Shown here: in pieces, positions 45,963-64,000 of the stretch
How positions within the stretch are numbered: the stretch's first letter is position 1
Layout of the letters: the number at the start of each line of letters is the position of its first letter
DNA from: Coleophoma eucalyptorum
Taxonomy: Eukaryota; Ascomycota; Leotiomycetes; Helotiales; Dermateaceae
Assembly: GCA_026120035.1 (NCBI GenBank)
Contig: JALRME010000004.1
Location: 372,001-436,000 of the forward strand
Direction of reading: 5' to 3'
Length of the DNA stretch: 64,000 nucleotides
Program-made: the position numbers and the translations under genes
Notes under the pieces: model-generated
What the model was told of the DNA's origin: nothing
The model's input: the letters and a program-made list of their open reading frames with translations, nothing else
Database searches by the model: none

Positions 45963-48234
45963 ATGTGGTTTTGTATGAGTAGCCCTAGCTGATTGATAAG
46001 ATCATGTCCTGTACTAATGTTTGTCAGTTGCTCAGATTGCTGGCCAGCCCTCTGCCAGTAGAGTGAGAATCGATGGATATGGTTCTGGCACAGACTGGGC
46101 GCAGGCCCAAATTATGATCGCACGCAAGCTTAATCTACCACTGGTACAATGCCGATTCATGCATAAGGGAAAGGTATTGGAAGATCACTCCGGTACTCTT
46201 CACCAATGTCGCATCCAGGCAGATGACGTGGTAATTGTCCAGAAACTAGTTTCTTCAGTCCCTACAGGTCCGGAAGCCCTTTCTGGCAACAAAGCACAGG
46301 AAAGAGAATCCATTGTGGAAGCTCTGGCAGTAGATGATGGCAGGATATTGGTTGCGAATTTTGTCTGCTCCAGCTGCCAAAAACGGCCGAAGTCCAAATG
46401 CTACGAATGTGGTTGTGCACAGTGCGGCGTGAAGGACGATTCCCAAGACAACATTGTTTGCGAAGAGTGCGATCTTTGGTACCATTGGGTACGTACATTA
46501 TTCTTCTACAGCTATATACATATTTTAAATCAAGTCCAGAAATGCCTAGATCCCCCCCTCGAACAGCTTCCCGAAGACAGTTGGTACTGTCCCCGCTGCA
46601 GGAATGACCACGACACTGTTATTCTCCCAGGTCAAAAAGGTATGGATAGTCTATCTAACAAAAGGGGGAAAGGTGGGAAAGGAGGTAGTGGTATGGGAAA
46701 TATCGGCCATCCAAAGAAATGCACAATTGTACCACCTAATTACCGAGGTCCCATACCTGGCATCGAAGTCGGGCAGTCATGGAAATACCGAGCCTGCTGT
46801 GGAGGTGACGGTGTTCATAGACCCCCTATTGCTGGAATTGCTGGGTCAGCCTCGGGTGGAGGGGCGGTCTCTATTGTACTTTCTGATGGATATCCAGAGG
46901 ACAAAGACTTCGGTGATACGTTCACATATACTGGAAGTGGTGGCAGAGATCTCAGTGGAAAACGAGTAGCGGTGCAATCTTTCCACCAGGAATTGACGCG
47001 TGAGAATCTTGCATTGGCTATGACATGCGATGCAGAGCCCAGCGAAGATGGCGCCGTTGCCAAAGACTGGAGGAAGTCGCTTGGCGTGCGAGTCATTCGA
47101 AGCTTTAAGTTAAAGAAAATGCATCCGAAATTTGCACCAGAGGATGGCTACCGTTATGATGGTATCTACAAGCTCGTCAAGTATGGGCCTGGCGAGGGCG
47201 CATTTGGATTTACAGTCTACCGATATGAGTACGCAGGGTTTTTTTTCCTCTCGCATATACATACTAATTCATGTAGATTCCGCCGTGATGATGCATCGCC
47301 AGCCCCGTGGACAGAGGCGGGAAAATTGAGGATAGAAAAACTCGGTTTGGAGATGGTTATACCAGAGGGCTACGTCCCAAAGAACCAAAAGAAGGCGGCT
47401 GAACCAAAGGTGTCGGGGAGCAATGTAACTCAGAAGCCCAAATCAGAAATGACTCCCACGGCTGGTGTTATCAGCCGTGGTCGGAAGCGAAACTTTGAGG
47501 GCTATCAGCAAGGTCAGACCAAAGCCGACCTTGATGTGTTTTATATTGAAATTACTCCAGGTGAACTATGGCTCACTGATCTTGGTAACGACAATGACCA
47601 AGTTAACAGTGGCCACGAGGTCAAAGAGTCGAAAGACTTCTCGGTACCACATACCAGCTCCAGCCCTCCACTTCAGGCTTCTACGGACAGTAAGTCGGCA
47701 TCAAAACGCAAGAAGTCGCATATTAGAGAATCTTCTTTCTCAGCACAACTCCAGACCAAGCCTTCGGAAGTGCAGCAGTGGAGGCTGCCAGAAGAGCTAT
47801 GTCTTCTTCTCGACAAAGCGACGAAGATAAATCCTCTCCATCGACCTTTAATAGATTCGCTTACTCCCAAAGAGCATCGAAACCTTCGCTCATTTGTGGA
47901 GAGGTTGGAAAAGGAATTTGCATGTCCTATATGCCAAGAATTCGTTCAGATGCCTGTCACAAGTCCTTGTGGGCATGTAGCATGTCTCCGCTGCCTAAAT
48001 GCAAGCATTGACACGGCTTTTGGCGCGCGTTGCTCCTTATGCCGGGCTTCGCTTATTTCACAAGAATCATTGGCAGGAGGCGTACGGAAGCTCAATCCAG
48101 TTGCAGAGAAGAATATGTGGCGGAAGCAGGTAAGTGTTGATCGTGCACTAGTGGAGATTATAGACTTCTGTGTTCCTGGATACTCTAAGAATATGGACAT
48201 AGAAGAAGGGAAGATAAAGCGAAGGGCCGGTTAA
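45963..48234 (+). CDS. UHRF1-like protein: UBL, PHD, SRA (YDG) and RING domains, 705 aa
   Basis: UHRF1-type proteins recognise hemimethylated DNA through the SRA domain and ubiquitinate histone H3 through RING to direct maintenance methylation. Exons are 45963-45972, 46028-46488, 46540-47228 and 47277-48234, totalling 2118 nt. The first exon is a 10-nt micro-exon giving MWFFAQIAGQ. Its intron has a TACTAAT branch site and TCAG acceptor. Domains: UBL about 1-77 (CRFMHKGKVLEDHSGTL), zinc-rich PHD about 117-182 (CYECGCAQCG, CEECDLWYHWKCLDPPL, WYCPRCRND), SRA about 225-400 (IPGIEVGQSWKYRACCGGDG, KRVAVQSFHQ, YRYDGIYKL) and C3HC4 RING about 600-646 (CPICQEFV, CGHVACLRC, CSLCRASL). Only about 40 residues separate UBL and PHD, so the tandem Tudor domain of animal UHRF1 is absent. 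Confidence 0.9.
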
Positions 48235-52208: not shown

Positions 52209-52296
52209 GGCCTGATAGTTCAGTGGTAGAATTCTTGCTTTGGGTTCATGTGATTCAAATTGTAAGAGGTCTCCGGTTCGATCCCGGATTAGGCCC
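52209..52296 (+). tRNA. tRNA-Pro (anticodon TGG) with 16-nt intron
   Basis: The acceptor stem GGCCTGA pairs with TTAGGCC, followed by discriminator C. The D-arm is TAGTTCAGTGGTAGAAT. The anticodon stem CTTGC/GTAAG encloses loop TTTGGG+T with anticodon TGG at 52241-52243. The intron is 52245-52260, one base 3' of the anticodon as is canonical. The T-arm TCCGG-TTCGATC-CCGGA is perfect. Mature length is 72 nt. A T-run terminator follows from about 52306. Confidence 0.93.
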
Positions 52297-54381
52297 TGTG
52301 AAATTAAATTTTTTACAGGAATCGCGTTCTCGTTGCCTATTCTTTGTGAAATTTTTTTACATTATATTACTATTATATTGTTGTCCTTGTTATTTAGGTG
52401 TCCTTCCTATTATTCTCTTTTTGGATTACCATTTCGAGTTATCGCTTCTACGGTGAACTTATTTTTTTCGGCTACCGTACCAACCAAAGCGAGGGACATG
52501 TATAAAGTTAGCATAAATCCTATATCCCGTTTCTCGTTTGTTGAAGTCCTTCCTTTCTTTAGTGCTGCTTTTTCTATATCTTTCTGTTGAATTCTATGCC
52601 TTACAAGAAAGGTTACTAACAAGATAACTACTATAAATCAATTTCCAATTATGCAGCAGAGGCTGATTGTTGTACGGGTATTGCCTGCCACCCACTCCCT
52701 GTTACGTCCCACCTTTGGAGGTAAGGTCATGTGATGTGAGTAGTGTTTTGAGGACGTGAGTAGTACTGCTCGCCTCGAGAAATCACTGCTCATTCAATGG
52801 CGACGGGTCAAATAATGATTGACGGTGGCGAGTAAAAGCATCATTTGGAAGTTACGACAACTCCCATATCAAAAGAAACCTAGGTAGTCCAGAGTAATTG
52901 CCACTGGGGAGAACTAATGCCTGCAGGTTTCGGGCTGGATCGACGGCGAGCATATGTCAAGTTTGACGAGACAAGGTTCCGACTATTCTTAGTTAAATAG
53001 GTAAGAACACTCTTCCCAGGATCGCTCGAATCATATAGCAGGTTGTTATCCCCAAATATACGGTATCGTTAGTGAACATGATGCTCCTGTGGGGTACGGA
53101 GTGGCCACACGGAAGAAAGGTATTGTAAATCATATGAGGCCCTTCTAGTGCCGGTAGCTGCTTTACTTACCTTGGAGTATTATGTTAAGTAACATACCAT
53201 AATAAACGGAACACTTATTAAACCCATATCGGCTTCTACTTAGTATACCTTCCTGATGCCATTCTTACCGGCTCTGCCAAGTCTTCGACTTGTGGATATT
53301 CTTCCAGCCACAATTTTAGTGCATCGCATACGGCGACTGCATTAAATAGATGTGCCACGCGTTGCACATAAGAATAAAGTTAATCAGTATTTAAAATGTT
53401 GCTGATAATTTCTCAATTATATAATAATAGAAAGAACTATGAGCCTTGCCAGGGTTGGGAGCTTTAGAACCTAATCTGGCCGGGTAAGCTCCCTATACAC
53501 ATTATGGTAATTTAATACCAAAAGAGCCAAAACCAATCCTGTAAGCTTTCACCAATTAGACCGGACGTATCTTGTTTAAATCGGTAGAAATCAGAGCCTA
53601 CCTACATCAACTCCCACCTTTTAGAGTAATCTATGGCGTAATGGCGTGATTCCCACTACTAGTTACTGTGAAGCTGGTTGCAAACTACGACATCTAAGTT
53701 ACCATACTCACATATAAAGATCAATTGAATTCGAGAAACCCAAATAAAATATATACATATACAGTTCCATACTTTCTATTCTTGTTATTTTTAATACATA
53801 GTAACTCATCTAGTGAGAACTTTTCGTTGCCTAAGTTTTGCTTGCAGATATAGCCTTAACTATCAAAAGTCTCTGTTCGATTAATTGAGTGACAAAATAT
53901 TCATAGGAATACCAAAAGCTTGTAAGCTTTATTATGTAACTCTCCAGCTATTCTAAGCTAGAGATTATAATCAAGTCTATAAGGAGCCGCTCTATGAAAA
54001 TTGAAATGACTACTATGTTATTGTATCTAGGGCAAAGGATCAATAGGACTTATGTTTAGAAATACGCTAAGATCGTATAAGAATGTATATCGAAATGCGC
54101 CAAGCCAAGTAAAAGAAAAAAGCAGCATGGATAGGTATACGGCTAGAGAAGATGAGAATACTTCAATACTCTCAGTGCTAAAAGTCAGAGGTAACAATAC
54201 TGGTCAAGAAGTCGCCGAGGCTGAAGGCCCGAGGCACAACAATCAAACTTTCCAAGTGGATCGGTATACATGCTTGGAGCCGGACCAATTTTTATATGTT
54301 AAGTTAAGTATACACTTTGTACAGTTAGTCTACGCAAGAATTTATACTAAAAGTATAATAACGATAAACGGATATCTAGGA
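52297..54381. other. AT-rich gene-poor stretch, 2.1 kb
   Basis: No protein gene was supported. A 117-codon ATG frame at 54052-54405 has no recognisable feature and runs into the tRNA relic. The many TA steps and lack of coding bias suggest decayed, possibly RIP-mutated, sequence. Confidence 0.45.
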
Positions 54382-54474
54382 TGCCTTAAAAGTAAGTATG
54401 AGTAGAAGAATTTTTAATTTAAGTTTAGCGATTTAAACTATAAGAGGTCTTCAACTCGATCCAAGATTTAAGCC
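54382..54474 (+). pseudogene. Decayed copy of the tRNA-Pro(TGG) gene
   Basis: Aligns end to end with the tRNA at 52209-52296. TATAAGAGGTCT corresponds to TGTAAGAGGTCT, CTCGATCC to TTCGATCC, and the end TTTAAGCC to ATTAGGCC. Most changes replace G or C by A or T and destroy the acceptor and T stems. A T-run follows, as in the intact copy. No functional tRNA is expected. Confidence 0.65.
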
Positions 54475-54924
54475 AACTTTTTTATCGAAATATATAGTGT
54501 CTATACTTCTCTACAAAGCATAGTTGTAATATATTGTTTTCCCCAGCTATTGCTCTGCTCTTTTGCTCTTTTGTAGTCTAAATCCAATTAGTGCTTCTTC
54601 TCTTATACAGGCGTTGGCGTACGTGGCGAACCGAGGAATGAGCCAATAGCTTCCAAGGCTGGTAGAGACACAATCCCGCTGTCCAACCATCGTAATGAAG
54701 GAGTTTGGACGTAATGAAGGAGTTTGAAGTGATTTATATAGGTACCTTAAGTACACCTAGCACTGCCTCAAATTGTGTGTGATTGATCACGTCGCTCGTT
54801 GGTGGGGCAACCGAAATGTGATAATTCACGCTAAGTAAACCTTTCTCGGCTGATAAGAAAGAAAGTCAACGACGTCCATCTAACATAAGCTAAGGTAGTT
54901 TACACCACAGATGAATCATCCCCA
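54475..54924. other. Intergenic, 450 bp, upstream of the third regulator
   Basis: A short duplicated GGAGTTTG..GTAATGAA element lies near 54690-54730. Otherwise nothing was recognised. Confidence 0.45.
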
Positions 54925-57372
54925 ATGGAAACAAGGAGGAGGATTTCGTAAGCAATAAGGGCTCTCCAAGCAGTGGCCAATACTAACCGTGGCTAGGTGT
55001 CAGCGTTGTCAGCTCCGAAAGGTAAGTAGTGGAAGCTCAGAGTTGCGCTTCTCTGGCTCATATGACCACCACCTCAACAGATTAAGTGCACACGCGTCTA
55101 CCCATGTTCCAACTGTACCCTTGTCGAACAGGAGTGTGTGTTTCGAGCCGATGACACAAAGAGAAGACCCGTAGGCCGCAATTATGTTGTAGCCCTCGAA
55201 TGTCAGCTTGAACAGTATAAGTCTCTTCTTCGAAAGGCTAAAGCCGCATCCGAGGAGGAACGGAGCATGCTACTGGAAAGCATCCCTGTCGATGATCTGT
55301 CTCTCTCCCAGAGCAGCAGCAATACTGAGTTTAACATTGATACTACTGGATCGGCCCGCATGGCGACGATGTCTTTACAGCCCAGTCCTCAAGGTGAGCA
55401 AGTATGCTAGTTAGTACTGCGGTGGCCTGGACCTGACATGCATAATGGAAACATGTAGGATCACTCTTGTTTCATGGGCCCACGAGTATGTATCACAGAG
55501 ACGTCTCTCTTAACAATACGCAAGAGGCCACTAGTACCGAACCCAACGTCGGCCCCAAAATGTGGCAGAACTTAGGCGTGCCGCAAAATGGACACATCGA
55601 TGACGAGCTTGTCAACAAAGCCTTATCCTTGTTCTTTCTTTATCAGTACCCTCAGTTTATGTTTATCTACCGAGAAGCATTCCTCGAGGATTACTATGAG
55701 AATGCGCACCAGGGGAAATACTGGTCTTATCCACTTTTGTATGCCGTATGTGCTTTAGGACTCAGAGCATCACCTGATCCCAAGATCAGAGAGAAAGGCG
55801 ATGTTATATACCACTTTGCAGAGAATATCATATTACCCAAGGCCTTAGACAGCCCTCACGTCACAGTGGTTCAGTCACTGCTCTGCTTGGCGTTTTACGA
55901 ATTAGGGGCGGGAAACCATTCGAAGGGATGGGTGCTGGCTGGTAGGTTATCTTGAATTCATGACACGCGTATTGATCCGATGCATTCTAACATTTACTTA
56001 GGTATGGCATTTCGCATGGGACAAGATTTAGGATTTCAACAAGACCCTAAATTCCTCGTCTCACAAGATTCAACTATCGCTTCGCATCAAGATCTGGTGA
56101 TAAGGCGACGTGTATATTACGGATTATATGTCTCAGACAAGTGAGAACATTCCTATTCGTGCGAGACTGTTTCTAATAAACACAAAGAATTATAAGCCTA
56201 TACCTTGGGCGACCAGTCATGTTATATGAGGAAGAAGCTGCAGTTGACCTTCCCGAGCCACTGCCGTAAGATCTCCCATCAACTGTAGATAACGCTGCAG
56301 TATTAATTGATTGGAACAGAGACTTTCCCCCGGGGCACAACTGGTATGGACTTAATAAACTGACCGAATCAGAGCTCGGACATCTGGGCGGAACGGTCCT
56401 TATGCCATCATTTGAGGGACTAATAGAGCTCTCTAAGATCGCCGAAGAAATGCTTTTCAAGGTTTTTTCAACCAAGATGATTAAGAAGCCGCAGAGAGAC
56501 CTTATACTCTCTCGATCTTCACGACTAGAGGATTTAAGTGTGCGGCTGCGTCGATGGTATTCCAACTTGCCTATTCACCTCAAATGGAACCAATGGAATG
56601 CTAGTTCAGAAAGCCTAATGCCGCATGTGCTCATTTTGCAGTTCGTCCTACCTTTTGAAGCGTCTGGCCATTTGGATGACATCTCGGCTAACTGATTTTC
56701 AATAGTCTCCTGTACCACAGCATTTTGATCTCTTTGAACCGACACTTTGTTCGGCCAACATCTGGCTTTGCTGCAAATGCAGGATCGAAGGAAACCTGTA
56801 TAGCGTCGGCTGACACGATAATTGCCCTAATACGCCAGTTTCGGTTTCAGCAGGGACTTGGGCATTCTCCAGTTCTTGTCGTGTATAGTGCCGTGATGGC
56901 AAGTAGTGCTATCTTCTTTGTACAAGAATCCACGACGCATACTATAGAGAAGGACCGACGACTGTCGTTCATTCTTAAAGCGCTAGAAGAATGCTCGCAG
57001 ACATACAATCTAGCGAAAGAAGCTTGTATCAAGCTCCAGGCTAATATTGATGCTCGGCATACGGCGACGGCTGAAAAACTGGCTCTGGAGGCGACCACAG
57101 ACTCAGGCGTATATCCGCAGCCCGATTATACGGAAGTGCCTTTCATGGGTTGGGTGGATGGAAGTATGTTTGACTTGGGCGCCTTCGACTTGGGCGTGTT
57201 TGGTTCGCTTGACCCTATGGCCTTCCGGGGAATTGGAGCAGATCCATCTCAATTGCTGATGGCCTCTGCCGACCGTATTACTGAACCTGCCCTTCCCGAG
57301 GGTTGGGTCTCCAGTGACCCATGGATGGGCTTCCCGTCGACCACAAACAATGGGACCTATGATACTACTTAA
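54925..57372 (+). CDS. Zn(II)2Cys6 transcription factor, eight exons, 682 aa
   Basis: Exons are 54925-54947, 54997-55021, 55081-55393, 55459-55941, 56002-56140, 56188-56265, 56320-56640 and 56706-57372, totalling 2049 nt with all phases matching. Two very short exons (23 and 25 nt) build the DNA-binding domain: METRRRISCQRCQLRK joined to IKCTRVYPCSNC, Cys 9, 12, 19, 25, 28 and 35. The fungal_trans middle homology region follows, with LFHGPTSMY, DELVNKALSLFFLYQYPQ, RRRVYYGLYVSDKIISLYLG and LLYHSILISLNRHFV. The last intron uses a GTTCGT donor, as in the PAP2 gene. It stands immediately upstream of the glycine/serine genes in the same orientation as GCV3 and is the obvious candidate for their pathway regulator, though this is positional inference only. 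Confidence 0.9.
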
Positions 57373-58058
57373 AACTTTGGCTCGCAAAATCATGATGCGA
57401 CTCAACAATGAGGGAACGGCATGGTCTCGTGCCGAACTTGTGTCGAAAGCGACAGTGAAGATGAATTTTTACACATAGCTTTCTCTATAGATACTGATTT
57501 TTAATGGATATTTGGGGCGTTCGAGGAAAAAGGAACAGCGAGGAGGCAATGGTTATCTATTAGTACTCTATTGGTTTAAGACCCCTCAATTCAACTTGGA
57601 AAGAGAGAGAATTTACACCCAACTTCTCATTGGTTCTTAGTGTTCGGCGATCCACTTTATAATGGCTCCCTAATTACCCCCCCATAGTTTATCACTGCAG
57701 GGTTGTGCATCTTGGCTCTGCGTCGGTTATGGGGCATCTTTGCGCTAGCGTCAAATTGACGCGGATTATGAACTCCATTGCTTCTAAGCGACGGCAAAGC
57801 TATCGATCGTTACTCTTTGGTGGCCGTCTTTGTCCGACCAATGTACTTCCAGACCCGAACCTATGCGTTATTGGCGCCGGTTTACTGCCGGTGGGCAGAG
57901 AAATTCCCCTGCCATTTTCGGTGCTTTATATGCATGTGATTGTAGCATGGGCTCATAGGGAAGGAAGAGCTAATTGAACCACTTAATGTCATTCCTTTTG
58001 GTGGTAAACCAGGCACTTTGTTTTTCTCGTCCTTCATCTCTCCGTCAATTCATTCACA
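57373..58058. promoter_or_regulatory. Intergenic, 686 bp, promoter side of the H-protein gene
   Basis: No gene was supported. CT-rich leader sequence precedes the ATG at 58059. Confidence 0.45.
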
Positions 58059-58643
58059 ATGGCCTCGGTATCTTTCAGACTCGCTCATCTTTCATCTAGA
58101 CTTTACACACTGCCTATAAGAAGCTCACAGCTGCCCGTCTGTCTGCACCGGTATAGACGCTTCTCAACCACGCCCCTCAGTAAGAACACGCCCACATCCC
58201 AAAAACATATCACCCCGCTGTAGCACTTAAATACTGACACGAAATAAAAAGAGCAAGAGAAGAGATACACAGCTGACCACGAATGGATTGACCTGCCTCG
58301 CGGTACCACGGTAGGGACCGTTGGAATTACCAACCATGCGGCACATGAGCTCGGCGATATCGTTTACGTAGAACTCCCGGAATTATCGACTGAAGTCGAG
58401 GCTGGTGACGCCTTGGGAGCGGTTGAATCGGTGAAGAGCGCCGCTGATATTAAGACGCCAGTGGCCGGAATCGTCACCGCCGTCAACTCGCTGTTGGAGG
58501 AGAAGCCATCCATTATGAACGAACAGCCCGAACAGACCGGTGCAGAGGGCGGCTGGGTTGCGAAGATTGAGGTGGGCGAGGCAGGAGTAGTGGAGTGGGA
58601 AGGCTTGATGACGGAAGAGCAATACAAAGCGTTTCTTGAGTGA
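58059..58643 (+). CDS. GCV3: Glycine cleavage system H protein, mitochondrial, 170 aa
   Basis: The lipoylated carrier protein of the mitochondrial glycine cleavage system shuttles the aminomethyl group between P, T and L proteins. Exons are 58059-58179 and 58252-58643. The 72-nt intron has GTAAGA, ATACTGAC and AAAAG ends. Residues 1 to about 38 form an Arg/Ser/Leu-rich presequence without acids (FRLAHLSSRLYTLPIRSS, RRFSTTP), as expected for mitochondrial import. The mature part starts near YTADHEWIDL. The H-protein fold contains VGITNHAAHELGDIVYVELP and the lipoylation site GAVESVKSAADI, with the acceptor lysine at residue 102. The C-terminus YKAFLE is typical. Convergent with SHMT, leaving 320 bp. 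Confidence 0.95.
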
Positions 58644-58963
58644 AGCAGGCTCTTGAGGAGAGGGGGATAGGTGATAGCTCTTGGTTATAGATAGAGTATA
58701 GTATCCAAAAGGTTCAGTCTTGGGCATAGAAGACTAGATGATGAGGGAACGGGAAAAGAAAGATACCACAAAATAGAAAGACATGTCCAACATGGATTAT
58801 TGATTGGTCAATATAAGAACCTGCCTGTAGAGCGTGAGATTATGGTATATGATTTGTCCTTATATATGTTTATATCCGCTCAGTACCTAACTCAACAAAA
58901 AAACTGAAAAAAGAAAAAGCATTTAAATTCTAAAGTACTCTAGCGCCCAAGTTTTTATTTCAG
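58644..58963. other. Convergent 3' gap GCV3/SHM, 320 bp
   Basis: A-rich, with no other feature. Confidence 0.5.
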
Positions 58964-60696
58964 CTACTCCCAAGGCAGCAAGAACTTCCCAGCCCACTCC
59001 TCATTTTCCTCGCGCAACTTAACGACATCCTTATCCTCATGATCCCGCAAGAACTCATAAAAAGCGCCCACACTCAGAGGGTTCTTCCTCCCGCGTTCTC
59101 GACTCGCCACCTTCGCCTCATGATCCAGCCGCTGCGTAATGCCAACAGCCCTATGAATGATCTCAGCGATCCTCGCAAAATCCGCCTCTTGCATTCCCCG
59201 CGTGGTCATGGCCGGCGATCCAATCCGCAGTCCGCCAGGCTTCAGCGCCGAGACATCACCCGGCACGGTATTCTTGTTGGAGGTGAGGGACACAAGATCA
59301 AGGACGCGCTCTAGCCGTGCCCCGTCGATCCCACGGTCCCGGAGATCGATCAAGATAAGGTGGTTGTCGGTACCCCCCGAAACAAGGTTATAACCTAGCC
59401 CGCCGTGGTCCTTGCCTAGCCTATCCGCGAGGGCTTTGGCATTACGCAGCACCTGGTGCTGGTAGGCCTTGAATGTTCCCGTCTTGGCCTGCTCCAAGGC
59501 CACGGCCAGCGCGGTGATGGTGTGATTGTGTGGACCGCCTTGGTGGCCGGGGAAGACGGAGAAGTTGATTTTCTCTTCGAGGTCGTACGGGACCTCCTTC
59601 CCTTTGACCACGTGCCGGATTCCTTTGCGGTAGAAAATCATGGCGCCACGAGGCCCTCGGAGGGATTTGTGGGTGGTGGTTGTCACGATATCGGAGTGGG
59701 TGAAGGGAGACGGTAGAGCGCCGGCGGCAACCAGGCCGGAGATGTGCGCCATGTCACTCAAGAGATATGCACCGACTTTGTTAGCAACCTCACGAAAGCG
59801 GTCATACTGAATCAGTCGACTATATGCTGATGCTCCAGCCACGATCAGCTTGGGGCGGTAAAGAATCGCGGTTTGCTCCAGTTTAGAGTAGTCAATCAGT
59901 CCAGTCGACTCGTCGAGGCGGTACGGGAGCGTTTCAAAGTATTTTGAGATGGCCGAGATTTTCTTGGTCGCCGTTTGATAGCCGTGGGATAGGTGGCCGC
60001 CGTGAGGAAGATCGAGTCCCATGAGACGGTCATGAACATCGAGTACCGCTGAATAGGCTTGGAGATTGGCAGGAGACCCTGAGTGTGCTACAAATATTTC
60101 ATCATTAGCAAGTATTTTCTGATAGAAAATGACGCTTAGCAAGAGAAACTTACGTTGGATATTCACCCCCCATTCATTTTCATCCAAATTGAATGCCTCA
60201 AGGGCACGTTGCTGGCACAATCGCTCCGCTTGATCAATGAACTCATTGCCGCCATAGTACCTCGCGCCGGGATAACCCTCAGAATATTTATCTGTACATT
60301 TAGGTGTCAGTAGGGCATTTCCACGAAATTCCAATTTTGGGTTACTTGCTTTGCATAACACTTCCTAGTGCTTCTAGGACCGCTTCAGACGTAAAATTCT
60401 CTGATGGAATGAGATTTATATAGTGCTTTTGACGGTGTTTTTCCTATAGTTCCTGGGAGTTAATTCTTAATATCTCACAGCCCGCTGCTAAGCCGGTTCG
60501 AATAAGGATTGAAAGTACCTTTTGAATAATACCATAAACCATAGGGTCTGATGTTGCCAGGTCATTGCAGAGCAGCTATCATATTATAAAGTCAACATCT
60601 ATTCTGGTGTGGTTACTCCGGTTTGTACCGCACCTTATGTTGATGGCCCAACGAAAAGGTTGAAGCTGCTCGTTTTGTCAATATGCGTGGATGCAT
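58964..60696 (-). CDS. SHM1: Serine hydroxymethyltransferase, mitochondrial form, 491 aa
   Basis: A PLP enzyme interconverting serine plus THF and glycine plus 5,10-methylene-THF. Exons are 60696-60634, 60575-60519, 60443-60350, 60291-60154 and 60087-58964, totalling 1476 nt. The third intron is GC-AG (GCAAGT...TACAG). Only that junction yields the conserved [19 protein letters not shown], whereas the GTAACC donor two codons away gives a stop. The N-terminus [17 protein letters not shown] is a basic, acid-free presequence, arguing for mitochondrial location alongside glycine cleavage. Family blocks: [41 protein letters not shown], the PLP-lysine motif [13 protein letters not shown] (Lys about 258), [13 protein letters not shown] and [12 protein letters not shown]. 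Length is normal. Divergent from the dehydratase gene. Confidence 0.95.
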
Positions 60697-61222
60697 GCTG
60701 AGTCTCTGCGACGTAGAGAGCCATTGCTGTTCCCCGGTCGCTTGCAAAAAAGCTGCTGATCTTGTATAAATGGACAAATTAGACACCCTCATCCTCGAAT
60801 GTTGGTTTATAGAGTAACGAGAAAAGCAAAAGCAGTAGCGTAAAGAAGGGAGTGACGGTGAGTATGAGGGTATGTAAACCCTAATACTACTAAATTGAAG
60901 TATTTTAACTAGAAAGTAGTTTTCGCCAAGGTAAAGGTTTCGCCCCGTGCAGTAGGTGGGATCTCGTTTCGTTTAATGTCGACAACGGACTTTCAAATCC
61001 GTGCAGTTGGTAACGTGGAGAGTGGGGACCGCAACACTTAGTTGGTGGTGGAGAAGCGTTCCCTTGGACCCTGTAGCCATCAATGGCCTGAATGGCCGAT
61101 ACAGTGCAATAGATAATTGCTTAATGATAATCCAGCATGGTTGAAGACTTCATCATCCTCCGTTAATATTATGATTGTATGCTTTCAGTTCTCAGACAAC
61201 ATCTCATCTCGTACTTATAACT
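60697..61222. promoter_or_regulatory. Shared divergent promoter SHMT/serine dehydratase, 526 bp
   Basis: Start codons at 60696 (minus) and 61223 (plus) face away from each other, so one regulatory region can serve both the enzyme that makes serine from glycine and the one that deaminates serine. It includes an 11-base AAAAGCAAAAG stretch and GTGG-type repeats near 61030-61050. No operator is assigned. Confidence 0.5.
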
Positions 61223-62553
61223 ATGGGATCTCAATGCCAGACCACCACCTCCAGACCACCCTGGGTCATGACGCCATGCGTGGAGTCGCTTTCTCTCTCT
61301 GCTTCAGCTCACTGGTAAGTGAGGTGGCACAATCTGATGGAATACCACGATGACCAATTTCTGATCGCGCCGAAGTGAAGTACACTTGAAGCTCGAACAA
61401 TTCCAGCCGTCGGGCTCATTCAAATCGAGGTCAGTAGTTATACGCGATCTTATAATAGATCCAGTCAGACGCTTGACTGTTCCTAAATACTCTCTATTAC
61501 TGAAAATGAATTCACTGACTGTACGCTTCCAGAGGGGTTGGGAACCTCGTCTGGCGTGTCGTCCAGCAGCGCTCTCAGATGAAGGGTGGCTCGGGGAAAA
61601 AGACTCACTTCATTTCCAGCTCTGGTGGAAATGCCGGGCTCGCCGCAACAACCGCAGCGAAGACGTTGGGCCAAGATGCGACGGTCGTGGTGCCGGAGAC
61701 CACAGGGAAATACATACGCAACAAGATCATCACTGCCGGAGGGAATGTGATTGTGCATGGTCCCACATTGGCGGAGGCAGACAACTACGTGCGGTCGCTC
61801 GTCGCTAAAGACCCATCTCTGGTGTACGTCCCGCCCTTCGACCACGAAGATATCTGGGAGGGTAAGTTCGGTTTGCTTTCGCAACTTCCGTGTTGTTTGA
61901 TAGGCTAGGTATACTGTGCACAGAATAACTATAACTCTTGCTTATCTAGGAAATTCCACCATCATCGACGAGCTCTACCTCCAGTTCGGCGGATCCCCAC
62001 CATCCGCCATCGTCTGCAGTGTTGGCGGCGGGGGCCTACTGAATGGCATCATGATTGGCCTCGCTCGCTACAGTTGGTCGGACGCGGTAACGGTCATTGG
62101 GATGGAAACGCAGGGTGCTGACTCCCTCGCGGCTTCAGTACGCGAGGGCTGCCTGGTAACGCTCCCCGAGATCACTAGCATTGCACGCTCACTCGGCGTC
62201 AAAAGGGTGAGTGAGAAGACGTGGGAGTTTTCGAAGATGCCGAACGTCAAGAGTGTAGTGCTCAGCGATGCCCAAGCCGCCATGGCGTGTGTCCGCTTGG
62301 CCGACGAGGAGAATATCCTAGTCGAGCCTGCCTGTGGCGTGTCGGTCGCTGCATGCTATCAGCCGGTCTTGCGTGAGGTTGTCCCTGACTTTGGTCGGGA
62401 GAGCAAAGTGGTGGTGATTCTGTGCGGTGGTAAGCTTCCCATGCTATGCTTTTGGTTCCATATAGGGTTCTCATGTCCATGTGTATAGGTAGTAGCGTTT
62501 CTGCTGAGACTCTGGTCGAGTATCGGAACCAGTACTCGGCCGCCCTGGCATAG
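61223..62553 (+). CDS. CHA1: L-serine/threonine dehydratase (PLP), 339 aa
   Basis: Deaminates L-serine to pyruvate and ammonia (and threonine to 2-oxobutyrate). Exons are 61223-61314, 61376-61429, 61533-61861, 61950-62429 and 62489-62553, totalling 1020 nt with matching phases. The start MGSQCQTTTSRPPWVMTPCV aligns with the family N-terminus (PWxxTPxxES). The PLP lysine is in EQFQPSGSFKSRGVG (Lys47). ISSSGGNAGLAATTAAK is the substrate loop, and CSVGGGGLLNGI the glycine-rich phosphate loop. Near the end VEPACGVSVA and VVILCGG are typical of eukaryotic serine dehydratases such as yeast Cha1 and mammalian SDS. No presequence is evident, so a cytosolic location is likely. It is not the bacterial iron-sulfur SdaA. 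Convergent with the T-protein gene. Confidence 0.93.
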
Positions 62554-62979
62554 AGCAGCTGGAATAATGCCCGAGGAACTGAGGAAATGAACAAAAATAA
62601 ACCAAACAAACGTGATTTCGACATTTGGATATCATGATTGAGAGGGAATACGTGCAACAGAAAACATACTCACAATCGAAACTGCTGAAGACTTAACCTA
62701 GTTGAACTTGGAAAATACATTTATGTGTAACTCATATCTGAATCGACGTTACAATCTATTATAATTTCTAGTATTGAACTTGTTCTACTGCTTCGTTACT
62801 TTCTTTCTAGAGTCTTTTGTAGCTTTAAAGCAGTCAGATCATGCCCCTTCGGTTATATTCTCCATCATAAACTCCAATACATATATCTGTGAAGAAGTTT
62901 CTGTTTGTTTCAATCCTTGTTTCAAGCAACTTTATATTTTGTCAGTAAAGCGGAATACGCTACCAAGCTCGAAGTCGCT
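62554..62979. other. Convergent 3' gap, 426 bp
   Basis: AT-rich, with no gene seen. Confidence 0.5.
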
Positions 62980-64000
62980 TCAACAATCCTTCTTCCAATA
63001 TTTGCTTGCCACAAACGGCATCTTCGTAACGACAGCTTTCCGTTGCTTTCCCCTTACTACAACTGCTACCTCAGTTTTGCTCTTATGGAATCCCTCCTTG
63101 ACATATCCCATCGCAACATTGATACCCAACGTTGGGCTCGGACACCCACTCGTCACCTTTCCAATAACAGTTCCGGCGCTATCAACAATTTCCGCACCCT
63201 CTCGTGCGGGTGCGCCGTTAAACACAAGCCCTACTCTTCGTCTGCTCAGCCCCAGCCCACCATCTTTCCTTGACTTGAGTTGGCCTAGAATCACTTTATC
63301 ACCAAAAAATCCACCTTCAGTCCTTCGGTCACGACCAACGACCCATCCTAGACTTGCCTCGACGGGTGTTGTGGTGTCATCAAGATCGTGCCCGTATAGA
63401 CACATTCCCGCTTCCAGACGGAGGCTGTCTCTCGCACCGAGGCCCGCCCACTGTAATTTTCCCGCGCCGCCTGCCTTTAAGAGCGCCTCAGCCACGGAAA
63501 CAGTAGACGCAGGGGGAATGGAGATCTCGAAGCCATCTTCACCAGTGTACCCGGCACGAGAGATCAGCAGTGGCGGCGAAGTTGAGCCATCAGCGAGATT
63601 GATGGAAAGAAACTTGCTTTGTCCGAAATAGAGCGTCTCTAAATTTGCGGTTTGCAGATCAGCAAGGACATTGGAGAGTATCGAAGCACTAAGGGGTCCT
63701 TGTAGGGCAATCAGTCCCCAGTCTTCTAGAATCTCCCAGGCCAGATTCTGAGTTGGGAATTCGGCTCGGTAGGCAGCCAGGTGCGTCGTGAGGTAGGAGA
63801 TATCTTTGTCTCGGCACGCCGCATTGGTAACGATGTAGAACTCCTCGGGCCCAATCCGACTGATGATAGTGTCGTCCACGATGCCGCCCGTAATAGGGTG
63901 CAAGAAGGTGGATAGGGTGCTGCCGTGAAGCGGGAGAGTATCAATGGACGCTGGTGTTAGCCTTTTCAAAAGACCGGCTGCTCCAGGGCCGGTCAGACGA
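62980..64000 (-). CDS. GCV1: Glycine cleavage system T protein (aminomethyltransferase), 5' end beyond window
   Basis: The T protein transfers the methylene unit from the H-protein-bound aminomethyl group to THF, releasing ammonia. The 3' part of the gene is present, about 340 codons without an intron. The N-terminus, including any mitochondrial presequence, lies past base 64000. Visible blocks are RLTGPGAAGLLKRLTPAS at the edge, GGIVDDTIISR (the folate-binding region with its Asp), FYIVTNAACRDKD, LIALQGPLSASIL, SRAGYTGEDGFEI, ARDSLRLEAGMCLYGHDL and TPVEASLGW. The C-terminal domain has GKVTSGCPSPTLGINVAMGYV. All are standard for GcvT. It is convergent with the serine dehydratase and completes a four-gene glycine/serine block. 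P-protein and L-protein genes are not in the window. Confidence 0.94.
   Translation of the reverse strand, partial: RLTGPGAAGLLKRLTPASIDTLPLHGSTLSTFLHPITGGIVDDTIISRIGPEEFYIVTNAACRDKDISYLTTHLAAYRAEFPTQNLAWEILEDWGLIALQGPLSASILSNVLADLQTANLETLYFGQSKFLSINLADGSTSPPLLISRAGYTGEDGFEISIPPASTVSVAEALLKAGGAGKLQWAGLGARDSLRLEAGMCLYGHDLDDTTTPVEASLGWVVGRDRRTEGGFFGDKVILGQLKSRKDGGLGLSRRRVGLVFNGAPAREGAEIVDSAGTVIGKVTSGCPSPTLGINVAMGYVKEGFHKSKTEVAVVVRGKQRKAVVTKMPFVASKYWKKDC

Follow-up and report, generated by a model that had tools for sequence, protein, structure and literature searches.

The glycine cleavage system (GCS) and serine hydroxymethyltransferase (SHMT) are core mitochondrial housekeeping enzymes. In Saccharomyces, the Zn2Cys6 protein Cha4 is the activator of the pyridoxal phosphate (PLP)-dependent serine/threonine dehydratase CHA1, whose gene is not known to be clustered with the GCS genes. 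In Pseudomonas aeruginosa, the gcs2 operon (gcvH2-gcvP2-glyA2-sdaA-gcvT2) is described, in the part of the report available, as activated by GcsR on glycine through a palindrome; glycine is reported to be channelled to pyruvate by this set with its one regulator, in a genome containing a further GCS set (PMC4894688). For yeast and Cryptococcus, the available text names a single gene for each subunit (GCV1, GCV2, GCV3 and SHM), controlled by the general nitrogen system, the Cryptococcus GCV genes being induced by glycine as a nitrogen source and responding to Gat1, and in that text neither a gene cluster nor a dedicated regulator is mentioned (PMC3313984). The nearest precedent in kind that was seen is the hxn nicotinate cluster of Aspergillus nidulans, presented in its report as an experimentally proven, regulated catabolic cluster that includes a core enzyme arisen by duplication and that converges with bacterial pathways (PMC5746545). 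Among the matches listed in the open-licence PMC literature, none was a fungal glycine-cleavage gene cluster. Here we describe such a cluster at the right end of a 64,000-nucleotide stretch of DNA (the window) from Coleophoma eucalyptorum (assembly GCA_026120035.1, contig JALRME010000004.1, positions 372,001 to 436,000; C46:372001-436000 in the numbering used here, in which C-numbers are contigs of the genome, 45,259,943 bases in 101 contigs).

From left to right, the genes for a Zn2Cys6 regulator and the H protein lie on the forward strand, SHMT on the reverse, a dehydratase on the forward, the T protein on the reverse and the P protein on the forward strand (table 1); the complete GCS-specific set, SHMT and the dehydratase are thus contained within 13.5 kb. 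The first five of these genes, in this order and orientation, had been proposed in a preliminary description of the window made from its letters, and they stand: each has a plausible splice model with one to seven introns, as expected of the intron-bearing genes then envisaged, and Pfam domains above the curated cut-off. The divergent SHMT/dehydratase promoter is likewise real, with 430 bp separating the start codons of the models, and the P protein, which the same text had suggested seeking to the right of 64 kb, is found directly there, divergent from T across a second promoter of 761 bp, so that the continuous route from glycine through serine to pyruvate is enzymatically complete once P is counted. 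If the genome has approximately 13,000 genes, with each enzyme present in two to three copies, five enzymes of one pathway would be expected to lie side by side at random with a frequency of the order of 1e-11, and we infer that their adjacency is not due to chance. The cluster is a real, complete and intact fungal glycine-to-pyruvate set, as far as its predicted function can be read from well-known enzymes, and we favour, with a probability of about 0.78, the view that it constitutes a nutrient-use gene cluster which would convert glycine to pyruvate and ammonia under the control of the neighbouring Zn2Cys6 protein.

Table 1. Genes of the cluster, operator-like palindromes, dispersed paralogues and sites at the loci of regulator paralogues. 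Splice models were made by hand from the raw sequence; positions past 64000 continue the window numbering.
Feature	Position	Strand	Description
Zn2Cys6 transcription factor, predicted cluster regulator	54925-57372	+	682 aa, 8 exons, 7 introns
Glycine cleavage H protein	58059-58643	+	170 aa, 2 exons, 1 intron; mitochondrial-type presequence
SHMT	58964-60792	-	523 aa, 5 exons, 4 introns; mitochondrial-type presequence
PLP-type L-serine (threonine) dehydratase	61223-62553	+	339 aa, 5 exons, 4 introns; no presequence in model
Glycine cleavage T protein	62980-64485	-	480 aa, 2 exons, 1 intron; 5' end 485 bp past window
Glycine cleavage P protein	65247-68462 (C46:437247-440462)	+	1051 aa, 2 exons; intron near C terminus
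SHMT/dehydratase divergent promoter	60793-61222
T/P divergent promoter	64486-65246
Operator-like palindrome CGGATTATGAACTCCA	57762-57777	+	7/8 arm bases; 297 bp from H start codon
Operator-like palindrome CGGACTTTCAAATCCG	60986-61001	+	exact; 194 bp from SHMT start, 237 bp from dehydratase start
Operator-like palindrome CGGATTATGGACTCCG	64882		T/P divergent promoter; exact CGGA-N8-TCCG
Dispersed H paralogue	C24:1614211		54.5% identical over 165 aa to cluster H; 1/1 cluster intron common
Dispersed T paralogue	C24:945k		57.0% identical over 463 aa to cluster T; 0/1 cluster intron common
Dispersed SHMT paralogue, mitochondrial-type	C6:532793		70.8% identical over 504 aa; 4/4 cluster introns common
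Further dispersed SHMT copy	C9:763k
Dispersed P paralogue	C79, about 1124k-1125k		72.4% identical over 1040 aa; 1/1 cluster intron (C-terminal) common
Exact palindrome, regulator-paralogue locus	C4:773864		between class-V PLP enzyme gene and amino-acid permease gene
Exact palindrome, regulator-paralogue locus	C10:868698		upstream of threonine aldolase gene
Exact palindrome, regulator-paralogue locus	C13:557670		between sulfatase gene and MFS gene
Exact palindrome, regulator-paralogue locus	C11:887286		upstream of D-glutamate cyclase gene; second site at C11:892357

Domains were assigned with Pfam at the curated cut-off, with NCBIfam models at their own cut-offs and from PDB matches by E-value. 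The Pfam domains are GCV_H in H, SHMT (658.6 bits) in the cluster SHMT, PALP (228.1 bits) in the dehydratase and GCV_T with GCV_T_C in T. P, H and T are each full length and recognisable, i.e. all GCS-specific subunits are in the cluster: the main exon of P scores 1380 bits with TIGR00461 (gcvP; cut-off 859.2), H scores 128.3 bits with TIGR00527 (gcvH; cut-off 115.85) and T, the start codon of which is the least certain of the cluster models, matches three gcvT models, two above the cut-off and one (PRK13579) below it. The motifs HLNLHKTFC of P and ESVKSA of H, which we take to carry the cofactor lysines (lipoyl-lysine in H), are intact, as are the PLP-lysine motif of SHMT and the lysine motif PSGSFKSRG of the dehydratase. 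The best PDB match of the latter is an L-serine dehydratase/L-threonine deaminase (E 2.8e-66), its nearest solved relatives being the L-serine dehydratases of human and rat, and the cluster enzyme does not reach the NCBIfam curated cut-offs shown, which belong to models made for prokaryotes. At least one lipoamide dehydrogenase (L protein) above the cut-off is encoded outside the cluster, at C5:74000-75376 (8 of 62 candidates were scored). The N termini of H, P, T and SHMT are basic and poor in acidic residues, as in the dispersed copies, and the dehydratase model is without such an extension, so that the last step is probably cytosolic; this suggests that GCS and SHMT would act in mitochondria and deamination would take place in the cytosol.

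Starting from what the sequence holds, namely the gene content, its completeness and intactness, the paralogy, the common introns and the common palindrome, a scheme can be proposed in which the direction of flux, the compartments, the inducer, the binding of the regulator and the housekeeping role of the dispersed copies are inferred. In mitochondria, the cluster P, H and T proteins, with the lipoamide dehydrogenase encoded elsewhere, would split one glycine into CO2, NH3, NADH and methylene-tetrahydrofolate, the carbon of which the cluster SHMT would transfer to a second glycine, yielding serine. This serine would then leave the mitochondrion and be converted by the PLP-dependent dehydratase to pyruvate and NH3, the net result being two glycine to pyruvate, two NH3, CO2 and NADH. 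The Zn2Cys6 protein probably binds CGGA-N8-TCCG in the two divergent promoters and before H, and would turn on the set in response to plentiful glycine (or serine). The cluster would have been built from old GCS and SHMT duplicates, the other copies staying dispersed for housekeeping.

Dispersed second copies, the search for which in this genome had also been suggested, were found for H, T, P and the mitochondrial-type SHMT. For the four duplicated enzymes, six of the seven cluster introns are common to cluster and dispersed copies in column and phase, dispersed P and dispersed SHMT having one additional intron each. Synonymous differences between the copies are saturated (proportion pS 0.84-0.89), with nonsynonymous proportions (pN) of 0.20-0.33; common introns, saturated synonymous sites and low pN together indicate old duplication with purifying selection retained. 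On this sequence basis, the cluster copies are old, DNA-level duplicates of eukaryotic genes, kept under purifying selection. The possibility had been raised that they were decayed paralogues with the real copies elsewhere: other copies do exist elsewhere, and decay is rejected, the cluster genes being full length with their cofactor motifs kept and with the pN and pS values given above. Bacterial P proteins reach at most 57% identity to cluster P (best 80 of at least 590 matches), and a viral scan with P gave three loci at 49-50%. The dehydratase has two close homologues on C4 (46-53% identical), besides more distant PALP genes, and a search for a bacterial-type (SDH_alpha) dehydratase gave no match in the genome, the same search being positive in 9 of 14 control genomes. 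As for structural detail, the cluster SHMT intron at 60292-60349 has a GC donor (GCAAGT), the corresponding donor in dispersed SHMT being GT, and cluster T lacks an acidic stretch of approximately 60 residues that is inserted in its dispersed counterpart. A third GCV_T match on C24 has an Iba57-like frame.

Comparison with gcs2, as far as its report describes that operon, reveals the same five enzyme activities placed together, a second GCS set, one regulator and a palindromic operator (predicted here). In contrast to the single-strand bacterial operon, the fungal genes are distributed over both strands and have divergent promoters, introns and mitochondrial-type products; GcsR is a TyrR-like enhancer-binding protein and the fungal candidate a Zn2Cys6 protein. 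SdaA belongs to the iron-sulphur, SDH_alpha dehydratase family, whereas the dehydratase of the cluster is a PLP enzyme. The fungal cluster is expected to work like gcs2; in view of the PLP-type dehydratase, the lack of an SDH_alpha match, the other regulator family, the strand layout and the introns, it is not a member of that type, pointing to convergence. The available account of hxn gives a likeness of another kind, i.e. a eukaryotic nutrient-use cluster with its own regulator, in which a duplicated core enzyme has been recruited independently of bacteria; the pathway is a different one, duplication extends here to every specific subunit of a mitochondrial complex, and hxn has been proven by experiment. 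The enzymes are the same as those of yeast and Cryptococcus, and the pairing of a Zn2Cys6 protein with a PLP serine/threonine dehydratase recalls Cha4 and CHA1.

The predicted regulator has both the six-cysteine cluster and the Fungal_trans domain (Zn_clus 26.8 bits, Fungal_trans 132.3 bits), and its DNA-binding domain matches those of Ppr1 (E 2e-6), Gal4 (E 7e-5) and, weakly, Put3 (E 0.3) in the PDB. The domain set is the same as in these proteins, and the inverted CGG pair predicted here, from a correlation of motifs, is CGG-N10-CCG. Inspection by eye revealed GCGGATTATGRACTCC in two cluster promoters and CGGACTTTCAAATCCG in the third, and the pattern was then scored: among all combinations of 4 flanking bases and 19 spacings, CGGA-N8-TCCG ranked first, the three promoters together matching it at 23 of 24 arm bases, a score reached by none of 200 dinucleotide shuffles and by 3 of 5000 random triples of real DNA of the same length from the same genome. 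Of the 16-mer GCGGATTATGNACTCC, the genome has two exact copies, one in the H and one in the T/P promoter, and two one-mismatch places elsewhere. Genome-wide, CGGA-N8-TCCG has 322 sites in 45.26 Mb, compared with 581 for the control pattern read backwards, and none of the five loci of dispersed GCS and SHMT copies (6-10 kb each) has an exact site. The link to the regulator, mere adjacency in the preliminary description, has thereby gained some support, and the sequence evidence for joint control of the cluster genes may be called fair.

A number of observations weigh against the proposed regulation or the nutrient-use reading as a whole. The palindrome was spotted by eye ahead of scoring, and significance is confined to the extended arms, a bare CGG-N-CCG pair with one shared spacing being reached by 49 of 200 shuffles. 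The whole window holds two exact palindromes, a number no higher than expected by chance (it is attained by 17 of 100 shuffles), and one of the two, at position 250, is remote from the cluster; one-mismatch palindromes number 13 against 17.6 expected in the window, and 4 against 2.9 in the stretch to its right (L003). Matches of 7/8 occur at three of the five dispersed-copy loci, including one (L031:4454) that precedes the start codon of dispersed SHMT by approximately 590 bp, so that the 7/8 site of the H promoter proves little alone, and an exact palindrome lies inside the coding region of a C4 dehydratase homologue. The signal is therefore in which promoters carry copies, not in their overall count. 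Furthermore, the region upstream of the regulator (54300-54924) shares no 16-mer, at up to two mismatches, with the other promoters, and no transporter gene was recognised between the regulator and P. Control of the promoters by a nitrogen (GATA) regulator was considered and set aside, the GATA sites not being enriched: the counts of 4, 3, 2 and 4 (shuffle means 2.7, 2.2, 1.4 and 2.0) are reached by 87, 107, 120 and 36 of 300 shuffles.

The four best-scoring other loci of the regulator in the genome, on C10, C4, C13 and C11 (top-scoring exon 55, 51, 40 and 33% identical, respectively), were examined with 18-20 kb around each. At all four, the matched exons are accompanied by an exact CGGA-N8-TCCG at a distance of about 1.9-3.0 kb (chance 2.8e-4), and it is this result that provides an independent test of the motif. 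Among seven distant Zn2Cys6-type matches taken as control, on the stretch from C3 to C9:362813 where the site list is complete, one has an exact site within 10 kb, 4/4 versus 1/7 giving 0.015; this site, C7:455910, approximately 3 kb from the distant match near C7:452k, also fits a refined form of the motif, CGGAYTWNNNNNTCCG. The refined form has 41 distinct places in 45.26 Mb (45 rows, four palindromic ones appearing twice), its control, read backwards, giving 45 and 46 rows, and six of the 41 lie in the five regulator loci, two in the glycine cluster and four beside the four paralogues; this (YTW) form was chosen after the sites had been seen, and the figure of 1e-6 attached to it is not an independent test. 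It also counts against the scheme that a perfect refined site, C79:1421815, the one of the remaining 35 places whose surroundings were inspected, is without an evident link, lying beside a membrane-protein-like frame (judged by eye). Two further motif-like places were discarded, C5:927609 as lying inside a long open frame and C13:825416 as being without an exact palindrome. Threonine aldolase, encoded at the C10 locus, makes glycine. On these grounds it is conceivable, and put forward only tentatively, that the glycine cluster belongs, as one node, to a larger wired system, in which five or more duplicated Zn2Cys6 regulators each stand beside a target locus of their own and keep the same operator.

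The surroundings of these paralogues deserve a brief description. On C4, CoA-transferase genes (Pfam) stand around the regulator paralogue (C4:766001-786000), with iron-ADH-like and thiolase-like frames recognised by eye, and the region resembles an aromatic or acid catabolism cluster; the permease gene there was assigned from a Pfam domain on a later exon, its N terminus being judged by eye. On C11, an NCS1-type permease is also near the paralogue with the D-glutamate cyclase.

As to where the cluster came from, a bacterial gcv-glyA-sda operon could have been acquired ready-made by horizontal transfer and have gained introns later, since its gene content is that of gcs2, as the Pseudomonas report available in part presents it; such an origin is next to inconceivable in the face of introns in register with those of dispersed fungal paralogues, of a P protein closer to its fungal paralogue (72%) than to the best bacterial one (57%, in the best 80 of at least 590 matches), of mitochondrial-type presequences, of genes on both strands and of a PLP-type dehydratase in a genome where SDH_alpha found no match. 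The common introns refute it for H, SHMT and P, the case being weaker for T, whose intron is unshared, and for the dehydratase; assembly from eukaryotic genes, as previously suggested, is thus borne out. Arrival of the whole cluster from another fungus in which it had been assembled is unlikely, but far less so. It would agree with the saturated divergence from the resident copies, with GC contents at third codon positions of cluster H, SHMT, T and P (0.51-0.59) somewhat above those of the dispersed copies (0.43-0.55), and with the transfers of catabolic clusters between fungi that are on record in the accessible part of a published account (PMC4347624). Old duplication within the lineage accounts for the same data, however, the difference in third-position GC is small, and this very genome contains paralogues of the regulator with that palindrome close by.

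With respect to function, the genes might be chance neighbours or relic duplicates without a joint role, given that other, probably functional copies exist elsewhere; six adjacent, intact and constrained genes of one pathway, with promoter palindromes in common, make this hardly credible. A more serious contender, which we nevertheless consider improbable, is a cluster for serine/threonine catabolism or one-carbon supply, with serine as the true inducer and substrate: the dehydratase would use serine directly, and SHMT and GCS would run from serine through glycine to methylene-tetrahydrofolate and furnish one-carbon units. SHMT is reversible, and the same enzymes serve both directions; in addition, a threonine aldolase gene adjoins one regulator paralogue, and the name of the best PDB match of the dehydratase covers both serine and threonine. 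What speaks for the glycine-to-pyruvate route instead is that the three GCS-specific subunits, SHMT and a serine-removing dehydratase pull towards pyruvate, that the dehydratase is unneeded for a one-carbon role, and that the equivalent bacterial set is glycine-induced, according to the available part of its report (PMC4894688).

On its right, the P gene is adjoined by a frame with a HET (heterokaryon incompatibility) domain (L003:4952-5266), and the frames further right, this one included, are without an evident pathway link. A HET-domain gene, the shortness of the introns and the size of the genome would fit a member of the Pezizomycotina. To the left of the cluster lie a tRNA gene (52209-52296; Rfam RF00005), the sole Rfam match in the window at the gathering threshold, and a gene for a UHRF1-like protein with SAD/SRA and RING domains (46018-48231). 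Between 28475 and 39012, two transcription-factor-like genes, an FAD-binding frame, a rhodanese-domain frame and an MFS transporter possibly form another small cluster.

If the proposed function is correct, a eukaryote would have assigned a central one-carbon complex to a catabolic role of its own by means of a second, complete and clustered set of genes with its own likely regulator. In gene content, the set seems to reproduce a bacterial operon by convergence, with different dehydratase and regulator families, and on the practical side it offers candidate genes through which a filamentous fungus may use glycine as a source of nitrogen and carbon. The palindrome at the loci of paralogous regulators makes the origin of joint control in eukaryotic gene clusters directly testable and, should the wired system prove true, duplication of a regulator together with its operator would be a way of seeding eukaryotic catabolic clusters, which here would have independently rebuilt the pathway set of Pseudomonas gcs2.

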